This document shows positions 10,062-36,353 of a DNA stretch of 64,000 nucleotides, piece by piece (within the stretch, counting starts at the first letter, position 1; every line of letters begins with the position of its first letter). Origin of the DNA: Phormidium tenue FACHB-1052. Lineage in GTDB: Bacteria; Cyanobacteriota; Cyanobacteriia; Phormidesmidales; Phormidesmidaceae. The notes under the pieces were generated by a model. That model did no database searches and had not been told where the DNA came from. It was given only the letters and a program-made list of their open reading frames with translations. Made by a program: the position numbers and the translations under genes. The DNA lies in NCBI RefSeq assembly GCF_014696675.1, contig NZ_JACJQN010000002.1, forward strand, positions 124,001 through 188,000. The letters run 5' to 3'.

Positions 10062-11792
10062 CTAAAGCAAACTGCTGTATTTGTCGATTAGGCCAGCGGG
10101 GTCGGGATAGGCCGAGTTGACCGGGGCTTGGGGTTCGGGCAGCATCGCTTCCACCATCTGTCGTCGTTTTTCTAAATCGGCGGCAGTAGGCATCTGCTGG
10201 GGGCTGCGACGCACTAGGCGAGCATGGATCTTGGCCCACAGGGCTTCGCTGCCCTCACTGGCTTGCACATCGGCTTTGGGAATCTTGATCGCTTGCTGAA
10301 TGGGAATCGCGGCTTCCCCTCGGGAGGTAAAGCCGGGATTGATCAAAATGCATTTACCCGGCGGCAGGCGCAGAAACTGGCTGGGTTCAAATAGCTTGCG
10401 GGTGCGCTCCTGGTCAGAGATGGTGGTGCTGGACTTACCGCCGCCCCGATTCCGCGATTTTTGCTTGTGCTGGATTTCTTCATCCCCCAGAAAGTCTGAG
10501 AACATGCGGGCCGCTTCGTATTCTTGGGGGTTGAAGACCGCTTTAGTGGCACAGGCTCCCAAGATGGCGCGGGCCAGCTCACGACCGTAGGTTTTCTCTA
10601 GCTGCACCAGGTTTTGAAAGCCGAGGATGACGGCTAGACCGTCCTCGCGGTTTTCGTTCAGCCACTGCACCAGGGTAGGCAGGTAAAGAGTGGGCAGCTC
10701 GTCAATGGCGACAATCAGCGGATCTTGCCGCCGCTGGGCCACATTGCGGGTGACCAGCATGTGCAACACCGTAGCGACCAGCGGCCCCACCACATCCCGC
10801 CGTTCCCGATCCATCCCTAGAATCAGCAGCTGCTTGCCGGTCAAATCGAGGGGGATAGACGTTTGACCACAGAAGGCCCCCAGTACCCCTTCTTTCATAA
10901 AGCGAGTAAAGGTTTCGCTGGCGCTGCCTACAATGCCGCTGGCGGTTTTCTCGGCATCCTTGACCCCAATCAACTGGTTGAAAGACACCCGAATCCAGCT
11001 GTTCATACCTTGAGCGGCAGCCACCCGGTTGCCCAGGTTGGTCAGCCCTAGCACCGCCTGGGCGGTCATGATGTCGGGGTACTGGGTGGATTTGGCCAGC
11101 ATCAGCAGTGCCTCTGTCAGCTGGTCGCCAGCGGCGGCAAAAAAGCCGTCTTCGGTACTCTGGGTCATCAGCCGAAAGTTTTTGTTCAGCACCGTAGCGA
11201 TTTGCCGCGCCATCTCGGCATCGGACTCGCTGCGAAGGAAGTCGATGGGGTTGCACACCTCGGATTCGGGAAAGCCGGGGGCCAGCACTCGCACGTCGTA
11301 GCCCAGCTTGGCGGCATAGGCGGCATGGCGAGCGCTTTGAGTGGGGTACTTGAAGTCGTACATTGCCACCGGTAGACCCTGGTCAAGGGCAGAGCGGATC
11401 AATGGGTCAATGATGCTAAAGGTTTTGCCGGAGCCTGGCCCACCACAAACGGCGATGCCCCGCTGAAGGTCGGGCAGGTATAGAGACCGAGCATCTTGCT
11501 TGCGGGTAGGTTTGCCGATGTAGAGGGAAACAGCGTTGCGTTTGCGCTCCTGAATCTGCCGTACCGCACGCTTGCGGGCGGCGGATTTCTCGGGGCTGCC
11601 ACCAAAGCGGCTAGTGGCGAGCTTACCTTTCTTGCCTTGACTCATCAGGGAGAAGGCGGCAATCAGCACGGCACAACCCAGCAGGGTGAGCCCCTGGCGA
11701 GACTGGAGTGAGGTCACCAGCTGAGAGATGGATTGAGTAGAGGTGGAATCCACCTGACCCAGAATGGGTGTGTGTTCGGTGTGGTAACGCAT
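10062..11792 (-). CDS. Type IV coupling protein (VirD4/TraD/TraG family ATPase)
   Basis: 576 residues. One N-terminal membrane segment (~35-50, LTLLGCAVLIAAFSLM) anchors it; Walker A GGPGSGKT lies at 117-124 and Walker B LIVAIDELPT at ~355-365, near the position expected in TraD/VirD4 proteins. Members of this family form an inner-membrane hexamer that docks the relaxase-DNA complex to the type IV secretion channel and pumps DNA. The short N-terminus (single visible hydrophobic segment) is shorter than in VirD4, which has two. The start codon overlaps the stop of the upstream membrane protein (TGATG), so the two are coupled. Confident family call. Confidence 0.92.
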   Translation of the reverse strand: MRYHTEHTPILGQVDSTSTQSISQLVTSLQSRQGLTLLGCAVLIAAFSLMSQGKKGKLATSRFGGSPEKSAARKRAVRQIQERKRNAVSLYIGKPTRKQDARSLYLPDLQRGIAVCGGPGSGKTFSIIDPLIRSALDQGLPVAMYDFKYPTQSARHAAYAAKLGYDVRVLAPGFPESEVCNPIDFLRSESDAEMARQIATVLNKNFRLMTQSTEDGFFAAAGDQLTEALLMLAKSTQYPDIMTAQAVLGLTNLGNRVAAAQGMNSWIRVSFNQLIGVKDAEKTASGIVGSASETFTRFMKEGVLGAFCGQTSIPLDLTGKQLLILGMDRERRDVVGPLVATVLHMLVTRNVAQRRQDPLIVAIDELPTLYLPTLVQWLNENREDGLAVILGFQNLVQLEKTYGRELARAILGACATKAVFNPQEYEAARMFSDFLGDEEIQHKQKSRNRGGGKSSTTISDQERTRKLFEPSQFLRLPPGKCILINPGFTSRGEAAIPIQQAIKIPKADVQASEGSEALWAKIHARLVRRSPQQMPTAADLEKRRQMVEAMLPEPQAPVNSAYPDPAGLIDKYSSLL

Positions 11793-14059: not shown

Positions 14060-14788
14060 CTAGCGAGCGGTAGAGTTCAAAGGCGGGTCATCGCGGGCAT
14101 TGGCCCCCCACTGCGCCAGTTGGGTGATCACCTCAGAAGAAACCCCTGCTTGCTCGGCGGCAGCAGGCACGGGTAAACTACCCTGGGACAGCCGCAGAAA
14201 GGTTTGCAGCCGATTCCACAAATCCTGGTTTTGAGCGATCAGTCCTCTGGATTCAGCTACCTGAAGCCCTCGGCGCACATCCCCTGGCCCCAGCAGTGGG
14301 TGAATGGGAGAAGCAGGGTTCACGACGACGGTGTGATAGTCGGGCTCGCCGGTACCGAAGGCGATGCGGAATTCGTAGAGGCGGCGATCTCCTCCAGTCG
14401 TCTCGGTGATTACCGTCAGCAGGGTGCCACTGGCCCTGGGCAAATTCTCAAAGGCTAATCCTTGAATCCGTCTCAGATGAATCACCGAGGGCTGACCCGA
14501 GACACAGCCTGAATCCGCTGCGGTAGGGCAGAGCGGTTGATCAAAATCGAGGGCCACTCGGGACGGATCATCGATCCACACCCGCACGATGCTTTCGTTC
14601 GTGGGAATAAAGCTCAGGTTGGTGCCATAGCCAGGCCAAAGGTGAATGACAGGAGCCTGACTGCCGGTTAACCCTTGGGCATGGCTGGCAGAAACGGAAT
14701 AGGCTGACTGAGCTTGGGCGGGGTGGGAGGAGATACCCGCTAGAGAAAGCGCCCCAACCACAATCCAGGGAGTCCAAGGTGTTTTCAT
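14060..14788 (-). CDS. VirB9/TraK-like periplasmic core protein of the type IV secretion system
   Basis: 242 residues with a clear signal peptide (Trp/Ala/Leu-rich, likely cut after AQA near residue 27). The mature part is beta-rich: VIHLWPGYGTNLSF, WIDDPSRVAL and a later YEFRIAFGTG strand, a pattern like the N-terminal domain of VirB9/TraK secretin-like proteins (statement of a translation-blocking 'F.P' with Asp-rich turns). It overlaps the VirB10-like gene by 4 bp, and VirB9-VirB10 adjacency is nearly universal. Assignment depends on order and fold pattern more than on signature residues. Confidence 0.65.
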   Translation of the reverse strand: MKTPWTPWIVVGALSLAGISSHPAQAQSAYSVSASHAQGLTGSQAPVIHLWPGYGTNLSFIPTNESIVRVWIDDPSRVALDFDQPLCPTAADSGCVSGQPSVIHLRRIQGLAFENLPRASGTLLTVITETTGGDRRLYEFRIAFGTGEPDYHTVVVNPASPIHPLLGPGDVRRGLQVAESRGLIAQNQDLWNRLQTFLRLSQGSLPVPAAAEQAGVSSEVITQLAQWGANARDDPPLNSTAR

Positions 14789-16269
14789 AGCGCCACCGTT
14801 TGATTCACGTACACTTCGACCTCAGTGCCGGTTGGCAAATACCAGACGACAGGGCGATTCAAGATTTCGTCTAGGGCCGCCTGATTCCGCGCTTCCATCT
14901 GCCCCGAGAGCTGCTCAAATGCGCCTTCAAGAATTCCGGCCAGAAGGTTGGGCTCTCCGGTGTCCTGGGTGATCGCGCTGCTTCCAACAGAGGTAATGAC
15001 CGAGGAAGTCTTGGGCCGATTGACCAACCCCGCTGCCCGAGATAACCCAGCCATAGCCGCCATCGTGGCATCCATACGAGCGATGTCCATGCCTGGGTCG
15101 TCATACTTCTGGGCTATCAAGGGAGTGCCCTCCACCCCTCGCAGTTGAATGGCTCCAGCGGACAGCGGGATCTCTTGCCCGGCCTGAATGAATGAGACTA
15201 CCGTCAGTTGCACCAGGCCACTGTCCGCCACCGAGGTCACCTGTGCCACCAACGACGTGTCTGCTGGTATTCCGATCTCTCCAGCGGCGGTCAGTAGGGG
15301 GGCGGTCAGCTGCACTACGAACTGAGGGCTGTCTGTCTCCGCCGCCCAGACCAACGGCGTTTTCAGTGCGGCTGGGGCCTGGGTGCCAGTCAGCAGCAGG
15401 GGCGCTGTCGGGGGCAATGCCACTGGCTGGCCTTGGAGAATGGCCGCTTCTTCGACATGGTTAATGTCACGGGATGGGGGTGGTGTGCTGACTTGAGCCA
15501 CTGACGCGGGGACTGGCGTTGAAGCCGCCGTGACTAGCGGTGCAGAGGTTTCCTGCGGTAAGGGACTGCCCTGTCCGTAGCTCCCCAAATGGGACAGCGC
15601 TAGCCATCGTTCCGTTGGATCGACGGCGGATTGAGCCGCAGATTGGGACACCACAGGGCGAGCTGAAACAGCGGGGGAGACAGGAACTGGTCGAGGCGGT
15701 AGCGGTGCCGGGGTGGGTCGCGCCGCCACGGGTTGGGGCGGTCGTGACGGGGGTGGAGGAGCCGGAGAAAATTCAGGGGTTTCTCTGGCCGTTGGCGCTT
15801 CCGGTTGAGCCGCAGGCTCTTCATTGGCCAGGGCCTCCAGTTCGGCTTGCTGATGCCCCATTGCTAAATCGGTCAGCAGCTGTCCCCGGTCATCGGTGGC
15901 ACTCAGCTCCTCTCCCTCGACCATAGGTTCTGGAAAATCGGCTTGCACCTCCTCAGCCGGTGGAGAGTCATTTTTCATCACCCCGCTGGTGAAGACCGCT
16001 AAAACCCCTATCACTAGACCCGTTCCAGCGGCGACAACACCCAGCTTGGTGAAGGGGTTAGCCGCCAGGGATAGCTTGGGCTTGCGAGTGGTTAAGGCCT
16101 GCCCGTCAATATCTTCAGCATCCAGTAGGGGTTCTGGCTCCAGAGTGGTAGCGGGTGCAACTGGATAATCAGCAGCCTGTTCTCCGGTAGCGGCAGGTTC
16201 TGGTAGGTGTAGTCCCACCAAGTCAGCCATCTCTTGGTCATCCCACAGGTTGTTAGGTGTCGTCATCAC
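14785..16269 (-). CDS. VirB10/TraB/TrbI-like channel scaffold protein
   Basis: 494 residues. A cytoplasmic N-terminus (~1-85) leads into one membrane segment (~93-115, GVVAAGTGLVIGVLAVF), then a Pro-rich periplasmic linker (~165-215) and a beta-rich C-terminal domain ending PTGTEVEVYVNQTV, as in VirB10/TraB. This protein family spans inner membrane to outer membrane and gates the channel. An Ala/Gly/Met-rich helical stretch (IARMDATMAAMAGLSRAAG) fits the antenna region that crosses the outer membrane. Overlaps both neighbours by 4 bp. Confidence 0.85.
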   Translation of the reverse strand: MMTTPNNLWDDQEMADLVGLHLPEPAATGEQAADYPVAPATTLEPEPLLDAEDIDGQALTTRKPKLSLAANPFTKLGVVAAGTGLVIGVLAVFTSGVMKNDSPPAEEVQADFPEPMVEGEELSATDDRGQLLTDLAMGHQQAELEALANEEPAAQPEAPTARETPEFSPAPPPPSRPPQPVAARPTPAPLPPRPVPVSPAVSARPVVSQSAAQSAVDPTERWLALSHLGSYGQGSPLPQETSAPLVTAASTPVPASVAQVSTPPPSRDINHVEEAAILQGQPVALPPTAPLLLTGTQAPAALKTPLVWAAETDSPQFVVQLTAPLLTAAGEIGIPADTSLVAQVTSVADSGLVQLTVVSFIQAGQEIPLSAGAIQLRGVEGTPLIAQKYDDPGMDIARMDATMAAMAGLSRAAGLVNRPKTSSVITSVGSSAITQDTGEPNLLAGILEGAFEQLSGQMEARNQAALDEILNRPVVWYLPTGTEVEVYVNQTVAL

Positions 16270-24044: not shown

Positions 24045-24480
24045 GGATGCGCTGGAACGGTTGATGCAGCGGCAGCGCCCGAGTGTACCGCCCCGTGCCG
24101 ATGGGTTGGGGGCAGAGTTACCTGTGAAGTCTCCTCAACAGGTGGCAGTGGAGGGCAATGGGTCGGGATATAGTGACTTTAGCGAGTCTACGGGTGTTGA
24201 CGTCAGTATGTCTGTTAGCCAAGGTGATGAGGCGGAGTTACCGCAGCTGGTGCGGACGACGACCCGGTTGGAAGAAGAGATTGATAAGGCCCTGCGCCAC
24301 CTCTGTATGGATGAGAAGATCACCAAGGAGGTGTGGTTTGAGGCGGCGTACCTTTACCTGGCGGAGCATCCGAAGGCGATGCAGGCGGTGAATGGAGTGG
24401 CGAAGGAGCGCTACCAGCGGCGGAAGCGAGCAGCGGATTTGAGGAAGCTGGAGACGATGCAGAAGCGATTGAGGGGATAA
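24037..24480 (+). CDS. ParA partner, candidate centromere-binding protein
   Basis: 147 residues, overlapping parA by 8 bp. The N-terminal ~75 residues are low complexity; the C-terminal ~70 are helical and basic (RLEEEIDKALRHL, KERYQRRKRAADLRKL). No ParB-type HTH is recognised. Small non-ParB partners of ParA are common in type Ib partition loci and bind repeats near their own genes; this protein may do so. A TTGACGTCA element lies inside its own coding sequence (24197-24205). Confidence 0.7.
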   Translation: MAEDALERLMQRQRPSVPPRADGLGAELPVKSPQQVAVEGNGSGYSDFSESTGVDVSMSVSQGDEAELPQLVRTTTRLEEEIDKALRHLCMDEKITKEVWFEAAYLYLAEHPKAMQAVNGVAKERYQRRKRAADLRKLETMQKRLRG

Positions 24481-24507
24481 TTGTGAAAAGGCGAGAAGTC
24501 GTAAAAC

Positions 24508-27500
24508 TTACTCCAGAAGGAATTTCTCGCCAGGTGCAAGCCTCTGCCAAGCCTTAAGCGATCCATTTATTAAGATGCCATTTTGAAAAGAATGAACTGC
24601 TGACATCTCTACGTTTCCTGTCCATTCATATCTATTTGTAAGAAGACGCTCACCAAGAATTGTCCAAATTAGTACTAGCTGATGCTCTTCTAAAAAGCTA
24701 GCTAGCTTCTCTTTAGAAATTAGTAATGCACTTGGCCCTGCTTCCTCAACTGAAGGATCAAATGCAGTAAGCTCATCGCTCGAATCTACATATCGGAAAT
24801 TGCCCGCAGACCATCGCAATCCCATATTTTCTATCAGCCATGCAGATGGCATTAGAGCAGAAATAGTTTCATCAATTGAACAATCATGTGTACTGCTCTC
24901 ACAGAGATAGTTAACAGTTGTTACGATGACTGGCGCAGGTAAGCGCTCTCTCTGCCTTCCCCAGATATTTTCCTGGCTCCTAAACTGAGTGGAAGCAGTT
25001 GCCCAAGGAAACTCTCCGACATAGACTTCATCCATTTGAACTGATTCAGGCATCCACCTTCCCATAAAGTTTTGTTCTTTAAGCCATTCCAATAATTCTT
25101 CAGAATCGGCTTGACGGGCAATGTAGCTTCTAACCTGAAACCACATATTACGCCTTATTCCTTCATAGCGCTCTTCCTCAACTGGTCCTTGTTCCTTCCA
25201 ATTGTAATATCCTTCAAGGGCTAGCCAATTCCTGCCGCTTGCCGGATGTATAACTTCTAGAAGTTGAAACGGATCGAGAAAATCCTCTTTTTGAACGAGC
25301 CAACTGGTTTTATCTTCTGGAGTTGCTTCCGAAAACTCATATTGGATTGGCTTCCACCAAGTAAATGAGCTGTTAAAACGATCTTCATTAGGTGTTTTTC
25401 TTAAGAGCATTGAAGGATCAATGTCCCGAACAGAAATTTGCCAAGAACCATTATATTTAGCCTCAAAATCGTCAACCTCATCTCCAAGAAACTCGAAGTT
25501 ATCGGCAACATACGCAAGGAACTCATGATATGCAATCCATTGATACTTCTTGCCAATTCTTTCAGTTTTATTGGCGTGGCGCCCATAGCCATTCCGATTG
25601 AGATGCCGGTCAAACCAATCAAACTTCTCCTCTGTCCAACCTAATTCAAATACTCGCTGAAAAATCCATCGTTGAGCTATTGCTAGATCAAAATTAAGCT
25701 TATTGCCCTGCGGATCTAGCTTATGAGGTAGAATATAGTCTTTGAAGCATTGCTGCTTCTTCTTGCCTAGTGTTCTCAGAAATCTATTTTCTCCCCTAAC
25801 AGAAAACTCATCCCATTGCTCTATAGAAAGTGCCTGACCTAAGATTTCTATTTGTTTGGCTTCATCTTGCCGCTTCAATTGTTGAATGTTGTATTGAATC
25901 GTTTCATACTCTCCCCAAGCATGTCTTTGGCGCTCAGTTAGCGAATTAACAAACTCTTCAGTTTTTTGTTTTCTAATTACTAAAATTTCAGCCTTCTTTC
26001 TCTCACTTAATCGACAGGAAGACCAGGGGAAAAACCCGTAATTAGTACCAATGATGTATCTAGCAAAATCCCCAAATCCCATAACTGATGATTTTATAGC
26101 AGTAAGTCCCCCACCAGCAAAATCTCTGCCGCTAGTAGATAACTTCCCACTGGCTTTAAGTTCTTCTTCTGAAGGAATATTAGCCAGCCATTCAGATTGA
26201 TATGGTGGACGTGCTTTTTCAATATCTATATCTGGTGGCAAAGCTCCTCGATGATTGGCTGTTTCAATCACACCAAGCGCATAATCGCGAAGCAGAATGT
26301 GAACAGGAGGCTCACCTTTAGCAAATATCCATGTGTATACTCTACTCGCTAGTTCTCCAATAGCCTCAGAGTTATCACTCATCATGGAGACACTATAAGC
26401 AACTGCACAAAGCCGTTCTGCCACATAGAGATCATTGACTTCACCAAACTTTTCAAGCAAGTTGAGTAGAATCTGTGGCCTTGGATATAGTGTTGAAACC
26501 AATGCTTTTGTCGCACGATCGCGTACATAACGGTGAGAAGTCGTCAAAAACCAAGTCAGTGCGATCGTACAAAGCTCAATTGACTCGTCCAAGATATGGG
26601 ATTTTTCTGCATTCCAAGCCCATTCCAGAAGACGATCAATTGCTTCTTCCTGATCGTAGTTTTGAGCCAGATAGATGGACCAAACTTGATCGCGATCGGG
26701 CATATCTAGTCTCACCAAATGTTGATGTAGAAACTTTGCATTGAAGGGGTGATCTGGTTCAGCTGCGATAGTAAGCATTAAGTCATAAACTTCTTCAACG
26801 CGATCCCCTTCGATGTAAACCTCATTAAGGTAATCCTTGGTTGCTTCTGTTATCTTTGTCGGTTCTCGCCAGATGAGGCTCTGAAGGAAAGCACGTTGCA
26901 CAAGATCCCAGGATTTTATGGAAGGTATCAGTTCCACTAATTCTAATCCTGTTCGCTCTGGAATTTGTACACTCAATGCTTCAATCCAGCCACTATTACT
27001 CCACGCCTGAGATGCATCAGTTACTAAATTACCCAGTGATTGTGTTGGAGTGAAAGAAGTCGCAGGATTGCTTGTATTCAAATGAGTATCGAGCAGATGT
27101 CGGACAATCAAATGGTCACTGAACCGTTCATAGGGAAACTTGACAATATCAATCTGTTGAATATCGTTACCCTCGGATCTGGCAGGCCGGTACACCAAAT
27201 CTTCGTTCAGTAAGCCCTCACTCAAAAGATTGGCAAACAGAGACTGTTGATAGCTGCTTCCAGGAAGAAGATTATTCACAAGGGTACTGGCATCTGCTCG
27301 CTCAACCCAGGGCTGACCTGTTTCTGCCATACGTCGAGCAATCAGATTGACAGCTTGCTGAGCCAAGTTTGCTGAGGGGTCATAGTCAAGCCGACGCCAT
27401 AGAGTGTCATGAACCGCATCAATGAAGAAGTTGAAAATTGCTGTAACGCCTTTGAGTCCTTTAGGAACACGAGTGAGCTTTCGTTTTGCTAACCCCTGGC

Positions 27501-28734
27501 AGAAGATTTTCAGGAATAGAGGATTGGAAAACTCCGGTACTAATAGGGGAATGTTGGGGCGTTCAATCCCATAGTGGTTGAAGAAGGTTGCTGTAGCGAT
27601 GTATTCATGGTCTGCAAACCCTCGATGATTGACCTGCGTCATTGATTCAGGAACCAGACCTTCAGGAATAACAATTCGCTCATACGAGGTTCGGCAGCTA
27701 ACCGCTAGTCCAATCCGTGGATAGTTTTCTAAGATCCTGATTATTCCTGGCAGTTCATTGCACCAGAGATGTTTTCCGTCTCCTTCGTTGAGTGCATCAA
27801 TCAAGATCAGGGCTCGTTTTCCACGGACTTGAGCGGCTGTTTCTAAAGCGGTGAGAAACTCATCACGATCGCGAAAGGGCAGCTGCAATCGCTGCAAAAT
27901 CTGAGTCCAAGGTTCGCTCTGGTTAAAATGCTGGCCTAGCAAGATGATGGTGGGGAGTTCCTGCTCCAGACGGCGTTTGGCCACATCACAGAAGAGATGC
28001 GTTTTGCCTGTACCCGCTTCCCCCAATACTAAAAGCGCCTTTTTGTTAGCCGTTTCAGCACTTGCGCTAATGACAAGCTCAGCGATTTCTCGTACAGCAT
28101 CTAAAAGCTGAGAAACATTGTGGCGTACACCTCCAATGATTTCTTTGTCAGGCCGGGAAGTTGGTTCAGTCTGCTGAACTGCTTGTGAAGTATCAGTTTT
28201 TGAGGAAGATTCTGCATCCCAGGTTGTAGTGTAGAAGTTGTGTTCTTCAGTCTGTGCATGTGCAGCAAGTTCGGCAATGTGTTGGAAATCGATCTCTAAG
28301 AGACTATCCCTTTCAATCTGCTGCAAGGCAGTAATCAGGGCAGCAATTGGCTGCTGCAACGCTTCGAGGCTTTGAGCGATAGCTGGAAATCTTTGATGTA
28401 AGGTGTTATTGAGTTTTGCTTTGTTACTTCTGCGATATAGCTGACCGTATAGGCTTTGAATACGATCAAAGAAGGCATCGGTTTTACCCAGTCCCTCAAA
28501 AACCCATGCTTCGGGTAGGGCAACATGAATCTCTGGTGTGTAACGTGCCCCAGCATTCGCCTTCACTTCCTCAAAGTTCCGCTGCATCCACCGAAGGGTG
28601 ATTTCGGGCTTGTGAGACTGAACTTCTTGTACATTAATTGTTTGATGGATATCGCCCGTCGTGAGGTTCCCCTCGACTTTGACATTTTCGAAAACACGCT
28701 GTTGTGGATTTTGGGGGTCTGGGCGATTGCTCAT
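24508..28734 (-). CDS. Large STAND/NACHT-type NTPase, candidate NLR-like defence sensor
   Basis: 1408 residues. Order: a short N-terminal motif (~15-34, KVEGNLTTGDIHQ), a helical domain (~45-150), a P-loop NTPase with Walker A GEAGTGKTH (238-246) and Walker B LILIDALNEG (309-318) of STAND/NACHT style, a helical region (~400-560), and a ~850-residue C-terminal part with HEAT-like helices (RYVRDRATKALVS). Such multidomain ATPases are typical of Avs-like antiphage or NLR-like sensors: the C-terminus recognises a ligand and oligomerisation triggers an effector. No nuclease, TIR or protease effector domain is visible, so the effector may be encoded separately; the divergent gene at 28918 is the candidate. 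The gene, mainly 24.5-26.5 kb, is AT-richer than its neighbours, which suggests separate acquisition. Convergent with the ParA pair. Confidence 0.85.
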   Translation of the reverse strand: MSNRPDPQNPQQRVFENVKVEGNLTTGDIHQTINVQEVQSHKPEITLRWMQRNFEEVKANAGARYTPEIHVALPEAWVFEGLGKTDAFFDRIQSLYGQLYRRSNKAKLNNTLHQRFPAIAQSLEALQQPIAALITALQQIERDSLLEIDFQHIAELAAHAQTEEHNFYTTTWDAESSSKTDTSQAVQQTEPTSRPDKEIIGGVRHNVSQLLDAVREIAELVISASAETANKKALLVLGEAGTGKTHLFCDVAKRRLEQELPTIILLGQHFNQSEPWTQILQRLQLPFRDRDEFLTALETAAQVRGKRALILIDALNEGDGKHLWCNELPGIIRILENYPRIGLAVSCRTSYERIVIPEGLVPESMTQVNHRGFADHEYIATATFFNHYGIERPNIPLLVPEFSNPLFLKIFCQGLAKRKLTRVPKGLKGVTAIFNFFIDAVHDTLWRRLDYDPSANLAQQAVNLIARRMAETGQPWVERADASTLVNNLLPGSSYQQSLFANLLSEGLLNEDLVYRPARSEGNDIQQIDIVKFPYERFSDHLIVRHLLDTHLNTSNPATSFTPTQSLGNLVTDASQAWSNSGWIEALSVQIPERTGLELVELIPSIKSWDLVQRAFLQSLIWREPTKITEATKDYLNEVYIEGDRVEEVYDLMLTIAAEPDHPFNAKFLHQHLVRLDMPDRDQVWSIYLAQNYDQEEAIDRLLEWAWNAEKSHILDESIELCTIALTWFLTTSHRYVRDRATKALVSTLYPRPQILLNLLEKFGEVNDLYVAERLCAVAYSVSMMSDNSEAIGELASRVYTWIFAKGEPPVHILLRDYALGVIETANHRGALPPDIDIEKARPPYQSEWLANIPSEEELKASGKLSTSGRDFAGGGLTAIKSSVMGFGDFARYIIGTNYGFFPWSSCRLSERKKAEILVIRKQKTEEFVNSLTERQRHAWGEYETIQYNIQQLKRQDEAKQIEILGQALSIEQWDEFSVRGENRFLRTLGKKKQQCFKDYILPHKLDPQGNKLNFDLAIAQRWIFQRVFELGWTEEKFDWFDRHLNRNGYGRHANKTERIGKKYQWIAYHEFLAYVADNFEFLGDEVDDFEAKYNGSWQISVRDIDPSMLLRKTPNEDRFNSSFTWWKPIQYEFSEATPEDKTSWLVQKEDFLDPFQLLEVIHPASGRNWLALEGYYNWKEQGPVEEERYEGIRRNMWFQVRSYIARQADSEELLEWLKEQNFMGRWMPESVQMDEVYVGEFPWATASTQFRSQENIWGRQRERLPAPVIVTTVNYLCESSTHDCSIDETISALMPSAWLIENMGLRWSAGNFRYVDSSDELTAFDPSVEEAGPSALLISKEKLASFLEEHQLVLIWTILGERLLTNRYEWTGNVEMSAVHSFQNGILINGSLKAWQRLAPGEKFLLE

Positions 28735-28917
28735 GGCTTGAGTTCAATAGAAGCACGAAAAAGGAGGAGGGTAGCCGAACCTTTGTGGCAAATTATACCT
28801 GGCCCGAAAAAGGCCAGTGAGGTGATAATTCAATCCGCTCATAGAATGAAAGATAGCGCCCCTCTGAACGGACGGTCGTAGAGGCTGTATCTAAAGCTCA
28901 CCCATAAGGAGAAGTTT
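28735..28917. promoter_or_regulatory. Divergent promoter region of the STAND NTPase and its candidate effector
   Basis: The 183 bp between two start codons facing away from each other must hold both promoters. A small hairpin (CTGGCC 28799-28804, GGCCAG 28812-28817) lies in the middle. RBS AAGGAGAAG precedes the rightward gene. No unambiguous -10/-35 pair is seen. Confidence 0.5.
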
Positions 28918-29400
28918 ATGGAACCCTTTTCTGTGTTGGCTGGTGTCGTGACTACCATCGTTTTGCCCAAGGTGCTGGAGAAAGCTAGCGAAAAAATTGG
29001 TGAGAAGATTGGTGAGGCGGCCATTGAGAAAAGTGGCGAGACTGTTCAGTTGGTTCGCAAAACGGTACAGAACAAACTCCAATCGGCGGGAACATCTGGT
29101 CTGCTGAAGCGGGCTGAGGAAAAGCCTACGGAACAGAATATCCAGGTGCTGGAGGGAGAACTGGTCAGCCAGATGGAAGAAGATCAGAGGTTTGCGGCTC
29201 AGTTGCAAGAGCTGATTCAGCAAATCCAGGCTCAATCCCCGTCTATTCAAGTTGTGTTGGATACGGTGCGAATCAAGGGCAGTGCAGAAATCGGCAATAT
29301 TGAGCAAGTAAGCAGTCACGGATCCGCAGAGCAGGTGGTTGGTCGTAACCTAGGCGTTGAGGGAGACCTTAAAATGGGAGACATAACTCAGAAAAGTTGA
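28918..29400 (+). CDS. Candidate membrane-acting cell-death effector with amyloid-like C-terminal repeats
   Basis: 160 residues. Residues 1-55 form an amphipathic/hydrophobic helix set (EPFSVLAGVVTTIVLPKVLE then EKIGEKIGEA), in the style of the bacterial Bell domain or HeLo-like pore-forming domains. A helical linker (~75-115) follows. The C-terminus has two copies of a pattern [IV]-x-G-x4-G-[ND]-I-x-Q: KGSAEIGNIEQ (120-130) and VEGDLKMGDITQ (147-158). The NTPase encoded divergently has one copy at its N-terminus (VEGNLTTGDIHQ). One copy on the sensor and two on the effector is the layout of fungal NWD2/HET-S; bacterial NLR-associated amyloid motifs are also known. Function is inferred, not shown. 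Confidence 0.7.
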   Translation: MEPFSVLAGVVTTIVLPKVLEKASEKIGEKIGEAAIEKSGETVQLVRKTVQNKLQSAGTSGLLKRAEEKPTEQNIQVLEGELVSQMEEDQRFAAQLQELIQQIQAQSPSIQVVLDTVRIKGSAEIGNIEQVSSHGSAEQVVGRNLGVEGDLKMGDITQKS

Positions 29401-29416
29401 GGCTGGTGTCATCCCG

Positions 29417-29683
29417 ATGCAAATCGTCCTTACCCCTGAACTAGAGCAACTTATCCAGCGCCAGATTGCTGCTGGTAAATACCAATCTGCCTTAGATGTC
29501 ATCACAGCAGGTATACACCTGCTCGACCAGCAAGACGACATCTATCAAGGGCGACTCGCCGAACTCCAGCAAGATGCCCAGATCGGCTGGGAAGCAGCCC
29601 AACGCGGCGACTTAGTCGAAGGCCCCACCGCCATGGCCCAGATTCGAGAAAACCTGCGGTCTCGCCACGCATCCCCCGAATAA
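29417..29683 (+). CDS. ParD-like antitoxin
   Basis: 88 residues: MQIVLTPELEQLIQ then GKYQSALDVITAGI, the ribbon-helix-helix N-terminus of CopG/ParD antitoxins, with an acidic tail that would bind the toxin. Starts 17 bp after the effector stop on the same strand and overlaps the toxin start by one base (TAATG). It would neutralise the ParE-like product and repress its own promoter. The spacing leaves it open whether it shares a transcript with the candidate effector. Confidence 0.88.
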   Translation: MQIVLTPELEQLIQRQIAAGKYQSALDVITAGIHLLDQQDDIYQGRLAELQQDAQIGWEAAQRGDLVEGPTAMAQIRENLRSRHASPE

Positions 29684-34885: not shown

Positions 34886-36049
34886 CTAAAAGAACGTAGG
34901 CACCTCGATCTGACTAATGAGGCCAGCATAGTGCTCCAACAGAACTTTAGGATCATGGCCAGTCAGCTTGGCCACCTCAATCACCGACATCCCCTTCGCC
35001 AGCATGTGGCTAATGAACGTATGCCGGGTATTGTACTGGGTGCGATACAGCCCGTTTTCTTGAGTCATGCCGCACTTCTTCAAAATGCTCTGCCAGGCCC
35101 GATTTAAGAAGTTGGTCGCATCAATCGGTTTGCCCTTGGGGCTGGGAAAGACCAGCATATCGGGCTTGTAGTCTTCAGGGCGAACGGCTAACAACAGGTT
35201 CTGTAGGTCACCATTGCAGGGGAAGAACCGAGCCCGATTCGTTTTTGTGGCCTTGCGCAGGCGAGCCGTGCCGGTGCCCTTCCGCACCAGGGTTTCGTTA
35301 AACGTAATCCCAGTACAGTCGCGACGGATGTGCTTCCACTGGAGGCCGATGGCCTCACTGGTTCTACAGCCCGTCATAAACAAGAACCGAACATAGTCGG
35401 TGTAGTGGGCGTAGTAGCGATCGTCGCGAAAGGTACCGATAATTTGCTTAATTTCCGCCTCGCTGAAGGGAGGAACTTTGAGCGGTGGCACCGGGTGACA
35501 CATCTCCGTCAGCCCGGTAAAAGGGTTTTCCCAGCTTGCGTCCACCAATTTATTCTGCTGCACCCAGTTGCCAAAGTCATTCAGGATGATCACCTGTTTC
35601 TTAATGGTGGCAGCAGAAGCACTTTGCAGCATAAACGTGACGAACTCTTGGGCTTCACGGCGGCCAAGGATCTTGCGCCCAAAATTGCGCACCTTTTTGG
35701 GAATTGGGTTGTACATGCTCACGATGGTGAAGGGGCTCTCTAGCCGCTGCCCCTTATCGTCAACAAACTCATCCCAATGCTGCTTAAAGATGTCGGTATA
35801 GGTCTGAGACGTCTCAGACCCAGGTGCAACCATTGGCAGCGGATCCTCAGGCTTGTATTTTTGCAACGTGGGGTCAAAATTGCCGCTCAGCATGTCTAGC
35901 TCGATCTGCTGGGCCTTTTGCGTTGCGACCCTGCGGTTGATGATGCTATCTGGCAAGCCAACCGACAAGCAGTAGCGCTGGCTCCGGTAGCTCCACCGCA
36001 ACCGCAAGCGCTCGGAATAAACTTCGACTTTAACTTGTCCTTTAGCCAT
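34886..36049 (-). CDS. Tyrosine recombinase (ICE integrase)
   Basis: 387 residues with an N-terminal arm-binding (DUF3596-like) domain (~1-70), a core-binding domain (~80-180) and a catalytic domain (~190-387). Catalytic residues visible: Arg229 in TGCRTSEAIGL, Lys near 267-269, Arg342 in YNTRHTF (the usual His is Tyr), His365 in LTGHD and the nucleophile Tyr374 in LEHYAG. Adjacent to the 3' end of the tRNA-Gly gene, 233 bp away. It should integrate and excise the element at the tRNA. This and a phage-type integrase cannot be told apart, but the conjugation genes point to ICE. Confidence 0.92.
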   Translation of the reverse strand: MAKGQVKVEVYSERLRLRWSYRSQRYCLSVGLPDSIINRRVATQKAQQIELDMLSGNFDPTLQKYKPEDPLPMVAPGSETSQTYTDIFKQHWDEFVDDKGQRLESPFTIVSMYNPIPKKVRNFGRKILGRREAQEFVTFMLQSASAATIKKQVIILNDFGNWVQQNKLVDASWENPFTGLTEMCHPVPPLKVPPFSEAEIKQIIGTFRDDRYYAHYTDYVRFLFMTGCRTSEAIGLQWKHIRRDCTGITFNETLVRKGTGTARLRKATKTNRARFFPCNGDLQNLLLAVRPEDYKPDMLVFPSPKGKPIDATNFLNRAWQSILKKCGMTQENGLYRTQYNTRHTFISHMLAKGMSVIEVAKLTGHDPKVLLEHYAGLISQIEVPTFF

Positions 36050-36303
36050 AGTTCGGAGTGGGGGTAAAGTACATCGCCTGCACCCTTGCCGTTATCTACG
36101 GTTATTCCAGACCCCATCAATCCGCTTTTCGTGCCCGGAGGTTTATACCAATTTCGTACCAGTTTTTACCCCCAAACTGCCCCAAAGTGACCCAACATCA
36201 CGGCCACTTTGCCAAAAAGAAATCAACATCTTGATGGCTGAATCCCTTTCTGGAAAGGCGTTTGAGGCTGAAACATTTGAAAGCGGGTGATCGGACTCGA
36301 ACC
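36050..36303. other. Probable attachment region at the right end of the ICE
   Basis: Between the integrase start and the tRNA 3' end. It contains an inverted repeat CAAAGTG (36183-36189) / CACTTTG (36205-36211), a candidate arm-type site. The att core is expected to overlap the tRNA 3' end from 36283 (T-arm and acceptor). A copy of the tRNA 3' end should exist at the left ICE border outside the window. Inference from the standard tRNA-integration pattern. Confidence 0.5.
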
Positions 36304-36353
36304 GACGACATTCAGCTTGGGAAGCTGACGTTCTACCACTGAACTACACCCGC
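36283..36353 (-). tRNA. tRNA-Gly (anticodon CCC)
   Basis: 71 bases fold as a tRNA: acceptor GCGGGTG/CACCCGC, D stem GTTC/GAAC, anticodon arm TCAGC-TTCCCAA-GCTGA (anticodon CCC), T stem GTCGG/CCGAT with TTCGAGT loop. No CCA encoded. The 3' end faces the integrase. If the ICE integrates here, the tRNA is restored intact by the att sequence on this side. Confidence 0.92.

Follow-up and report, generated by a model that had tools for sequence, protein, structure and literature searches.

A candidate defence cassette in Phormidium tenue pairing an Avs2-family sensor with a Bell-like protein that carries the same short motif

Bacterial NLR/Bell amyloid signalosomes with BASS motifs were reportedly described by Dyrka et al. 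in 2020. Pairs of this kind, including TIR and CHAT variants, are on record, and the Bell partner often carries BASS4 in repeated copies (PMC7889193, PMC8086366). For some bacterial amyloid signalling motifs, formation of amyloid or of prion-like foci has been observed (PMC8086366, PMC9815663), and a review of amyloid signalling calls the biological role of NLR cascades a major blind spot (PMC7889193). According to published work, the triggers recognised by Avs1-4 are terminase, portal or Ksap1, and killing is by nuclease (PMC12931631).

We analysed 64,000 nt of Phormidium tenue FACHB-1052 (contig NZ_JACJQN010000002.1, positions 124,001-188,000), called the window here; all coordinates are window positions. 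It holds a pair of genes that resembles the bacterial NLR/Bell signalosomes in having a motif at the N terminus of the NLR and at the C terminus of an adjacent small, probably helical protein, with TIR and CHAT proteins as alternative partners, but the sensor, unlike those described, is Avs2. The pair also recalls fungal NWD2/HET-S, where a single motif on the NLR faces two 21-residue repeats, joined by a short linker, on the effector of a neighbouring gene; it differs in its bacterial sensor, and profile searches matched neither HET-s nor HeLo. As in the Avs1 nuclease-protease systems, an Avs sensor stands beside an effector on a separate gene, but in those systems the link is proteolytic activation, whereas in the window pair it is a homotypic motif (PMC12799240). 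Bacterial NLR/Bell amyloid pairs being already known, the new part appears to be Avs2 as the sensor. A literature search, which did not extend to Dyrka et al. 2020 or Gao et al. 2022, found no paper linking such pairs to Avs2, and the coupling appears to be unreported. We consider it somewhat probable, at roughly 0.6, that avs2 and the Bell-like gene form a two-gene abortive-infection cassette in which amyloid-like signalling leads to a membrane-killing effector.

The Avs2-family NTPase and its small neighbour

Both open reading frames are real, and the locus is made up of the following parts.

24508..28734, minus strand: avs2, a STAND NTPase of the Avs2 family, 1408 aa, without an N-terminal effector domain (NCBIfam, PADLOC, PDB)
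28642..28704, minus strand: motif copy R0, NTPase residues 11-31 QQRVFENVKVEGNLTTGDIHQ, occupying the position of the nuclease domain (26.2 bits)
28000..28023, minus strand: Walker A motif GEAGTGKT, NTPase residues 238-245 (sequence)
28735..28917, no strand: divergent intergenic region, 183 bp
28918..29400, plus strand: gene for the putative Bell-like effector, 160 aa, with a helical hydrophobic/amphipathic N-terminal part and two C-terminal motif repeats
29245..29307, plus strand: motif copy R1, small-protein residues 110-130 IQVVLDTVRIKGSAEIGNIEQ (matrix and whole-genome motif search)
29329..29391, plus strand: motif copy R2, small-protein residues 138-158 EQVVGRNLGVEGDLKMGDITQ (29.1 bits)
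24480..29416, no strand: the interval that holds the ICE's cargo, comprising exactly avs2 and the Bell-like gene (blastn of sister elements, cargo typing)

A simple scan of the 183-bp intergenic region found no sigma-70-like promoter. The first-pass annotation had read the large gene as a STAND/NACHT NTPase; STAND NTPase was correct, but its identity as an Avs2 phage-protein sensor was missed. The protein scored 1411.7 bits against the Avs2 equivalog NF041813 of NCBIfam, for which the curated cut-off is 1000, and 1573.5 bits against the Avs2 model of PADLOC. Its residues 48-1364 aligned to residues 168-1446 of Avs2 in PDB 9o4e_A (E 3.5e-210), and the Walker A motif of a STAND NTPase is present. 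By these sequence comparisons it is Avs2 (AVAST type 2) and not an anonymous NACHT protein. By analogy with the family, it would be activated by a phage protein such as the large terminase.

Compared with Avs2 (PDB 9o4e, NF041813), the STAND NTPase and sensor region are alike over nearly the whole length, whereas a 21-residue motif here takes the place of the N-terminal effector part, which in 9o4e is about 120 residues longer and in most relatives is nuclease-like. Such an N-terminal domain is frequent in the Avs2 family yet lies outside the NCBIfam model, which starts downstream of it. Only 47 residues precede the conserved core of the window protein, as against 165-216 in intact nuclease-type relatives, so that no cis nuclease-type effector domain is present, just as had been claimed. 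Most of these relatives show a restriction-endonuclease-like pattern (AFEELC...GGDxGVE...QxK) before the core; their N-terminal region had no Pfam match, and we use the label nuclease on the basis of the pattern and the family. The effector of the window Avs2 is probably supplied by the second gene. In a tree, the window protein and a second Avs2 (L138, 59% identical, from another family) nest among nuclease-bearing Avs2 with support 100/100. The motif is carried separately by a remote Avs2-like clade (L062, L140 and L141, plus fragmentary members in L072 and L102), and two label changes are forced by the tree. This pattern suggests that an immune receptor switched from a fused nuclease to an effector encoded apart.

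It could be argued that this Avs2 has decayed, or has its effector elsewhere in the genome, with the adjacent motif gene a bystander, and one copy from the same genus (L139) is indeed split by a transposase gene. We regard this as very improbable. The window Avs2 is uninterrupted along its 1408 aa, there are exactly these two genes in the cargo interval, the rest of the genome lacks the motif, and among close relatives synonymous change exceeds nonsynonymous change per site.

The small protein is Bell-like by its architecture and context. Homologues were found in 38 of 386 cyanobacterial genomes, the motif being absent from some of them, and the gene evolves under strong purifying selection (dN/dS about 0.02-0.1), which covers the N-terminal part and the repeats alike. 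A hydrophobic segment spans residues 1-19 (Kyte-Doolittle mean 1.4) and does not amount to a classical transmembrane helix. Helices are predicted, and the AlphaFold model of the protein alone is of low confidence (pLDDT 46), too low for its fold to be read. The HeLo-type likeness suggested earlier found no counterpart among HeLo-type structures in a PDB profile search, and neither the window protein nor a profile of the Bell family had a credible match in Pfam or the PDB; one of 34 Bell homologues matched HetE-N (E 9e-5). No relatives were found in the viral contigs searched. Many Bell homologues (L070-L096) end in different short, motif-free tails rich in Gly, Asn and Phe, which perhaps represent other motif families, and one Bell-like protein has three motif repeats (L202:5402-5962). 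At a same-genus locus (L139:8037-14331) in which a transposase-like gene splits avs2, the Bell gene is intact, with 159 of 160 residues identical.

The mobile element and its cargo slot

The locus had been placed on an ICE, and the setting bears this out: a tyrosine integrase (34886-36049) adjoins tRNA-Gly (36282-36353), and the conjugation genes include TraG/VirD4 (10062-11792) and TrbI (14785-16269). What that reading missed was an exchangeable two-gene defence cassette. Sister copies of the ICE within the genus align to the window by blastn until 24476-24482, and the alignment restarts at 29417, immediately past the Bell stop codon. In the slot, L249 has a type II restriction-modification pair, shared by L250 and L255; L251 has Lamassu LmuA/LmuB, and L254, like L257, has an Hma-like methylase/helicase set. 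Others among L249-L258 have a TPR protein or unclassified large proteins, one of 1165 aa. Since sister elements join exactly at both ends of the interval and carry other systems inside, the pair moves as one defence cassette.

In two elements (G609 and G512; L256:5921-6181 and L204:434-694), a relic of the Bell 3' end with both repeats lies beside ParDE, and the slot holds other cargo and no avs2. We also weighed ParDE, which adjoins the Bell gene, as a possible partner; it was discarded, being part of the ICE backbone and present in sister elements without avs2. The persistence of these relics, like the divergent orientation of the pair, would suit a small protein that is a regulator and not a killer, its repeats capping the Avs2 N terminus and keeping the sensor inactive in the manner of an antitoxin; contact through the motif would suffice for that. 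We think this improbable, because it leaves Avs2 effectorless, with merely 47 residues ahead of the conserved core, and because the motif is shared by proteins with TIR and CHAT, both of them effector domains. The persisting relic, moreover, lost its N-terminal part along with Avs2.

The shared motif and the proteins that carry it

The motif had first been described as a 13-residue pattern at residues 19-31 of the NTPase and 118-130 and 146-158 of the small protein. These positions are correct and the pattern is present in all three copies, but it covers only the C-terminal two thirds of a longer unit. Tails from other genomes, in which the motif aligns, give a 21-residue repeat with the consensus xQxxLxNVxVxGDxTxGDITQ, located at residues 11-31 of the NTPase and 110-130 and 138-158 of the small protein, where a 7-residue linker separates the two. 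The count noted at the outset, one motif on the sensor (R0) and two on the effector (R1 and R2), holds for the full unit.

To guard against circularity, we scored open reading frames with a leave-group-out matrix that was trained on the Bell tails at other loci and excluded close relatives. Among 611 six-frame ORFs, the window small protein ranked first (29.1 bits) and the NTPase N terminus second (26.2 bits); the third-best scored 8.9 bits, and shuffled ORFs of the 14-kb region reached at most 12.9 bits. In a six-frame search of the whole 5.8-Mb genome with a model of 20 rows, the window's own three copies among them, only the three copies of the pair were significant (E 6.6e-11 for R0, then 1.2e-8 and 2.5e-7), the next hit having an E of 0.96. 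The NTPase and the small protein thus share the motif far beyond chance. The motifs within a pair, however, resembled each other only weakly more than those of different pairs (permutation P 0.013, kinship uncorrected).

The 798 residues of 38 Bell repeats contain no proline where 37 would be expected, and the motif has a strand-turn spacing, VxVxG[DN]hxhG[DN]IxQ. The absence of proline and the alternating hydrophobics broken by G-[DN] turns would suit a beta-arch. No sequence profile match to HET-s or RHIM and no Pfam match was found among the 20 motif members, and a PDB profile search with the motif matched no amyloid structure. By description alone (often repeated on the Bell side), BASS4 is the likeliest class for it. 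The G-[DN] turns and the alternating hydrophobics are also compatible with a folded solenoid, and this brings in the main rival to our reading: the sensor-effector logic is kept, but the repeats form a soluble beta-solenoid or an induced-proximity contact that recruits a fixed number of Bell proteins, with neither amyloid nor prion-like spreading. The recurrent homotypic motif, the linkage and the cargo data fit that reading equally well. It is set back by the resemblance of these short, proline-free terminal repeats on unrelated domains to described bacterial amyloid signalling motifs, and we consider it unlikely, if a serious contender.

We then looked at the neighbours of motif-bearing Bell genes in other genomes. 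At 16 of 19 such loci, the best non-Bell ORF by the matrix was a neighbouring gene that carries the motif, N-terminally or behind a TIR domain, and mostly encodes a STAND NTPase; 14 of these 16 ORFs scored above every shuffled score. The matrix did not recover a partner motif at three loci (L063, L138 and L152), one of which, L138, is the other Avs2 proper and lies 13 bp from its own Bell gene. The motif search found further loci with two repeats on a protein of mostly 150-200 aa, and several of these adjoin an NTPase with one N-terminal copy. Of the three refutations that the first-pass annotation had named, two were put to the test, namely motif copies that fail to align in homologues and homologues that are not linked, and its reading survived both. 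Its architecture of a sensor with a separately encoded trans-effector is supported.

Small proteins that are 77-83% identical adjoin either Avs2-like (L140, L141) or NACHT (L152) sensors, and others, 60-63% identical, adjoin HEAT-repeat (L201) or NB-ARC-TPR (L205) proteins. With close relatives of the effector lying beside different sensors, effector and sensor therefore recombine. On plasmid p057_J of Nostoc sp. C057 (L102:5530-13482), five adjacent proteins carry the motif: a Bell-like protein, VMAP, NB-ARC-TPR, CHAT and, weakly, a broken or split Avs2-like protein. A TIR-nSTAND3 protein has it between its domains (G368; L062:1-2202, residues 170-190) and adjoins an Avs2-like/Bell pair. The presence of the motif on TIR, CHAT, VMAP and NB-ARC proteins speaks for a homotypic adaptor and against a private docking site.

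Two further kinds of gene were seen around such loci. A protein with an FGE-sulfatase domain carries the motif at residues 316-336, near its C terminus (L203:11354-12412), and is a possible further partner. A DUF29-type gene (Pfam match) lies between the Bell and STAND genes at L097:6832-7263, and a similar 143-aa ORF was found at L098:5612-6043.

Proposed mechanism and meaning

Given that the nuclease is absent and that the adjacent partner has two repeats, the most economical reading is one in which oligomers of the sensor nucleate the motif and so template the partner, after the fashion of NWD2/HET-S. The C-terminal region of Avs2 would bind a conserved protein of the phage (the large terminase subunit, judging by homology, or some other Avs2 trigger), and the triggered Avs2 would then bind ATP and oligomerise. 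Oligomerisation would cluster the N-terminal 21-residue motifs, which may adopt a cross-beta (amyloid-like) fold and in turn template the two C-terminal repeats of the Bell-like protein. The latter would polymerise, its hydrophobic N-terminal helix would attack the membrane, and the cell would be killed or arrested ahead of phage release. In a broader scenario, which we put forward tentatively and at somewhat less than even odds, Avs2 gave up its fused nuclease and took on a prion-like adaptor, through which a separate membrane killer is driven; this adaptor is carried separately by a remote Avs2-like clade, and it also connects TIR, CHAT, VMAP and NB-ARC proteins in a single cyanobacterial cell-death network.

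Closely related effectors, 77-83% identical, pair with different sensors. Because the family of the sensor has known phage-protein triggers, a putative bacterial amyloid signalosome gains a concrete and testable trigger candidate.
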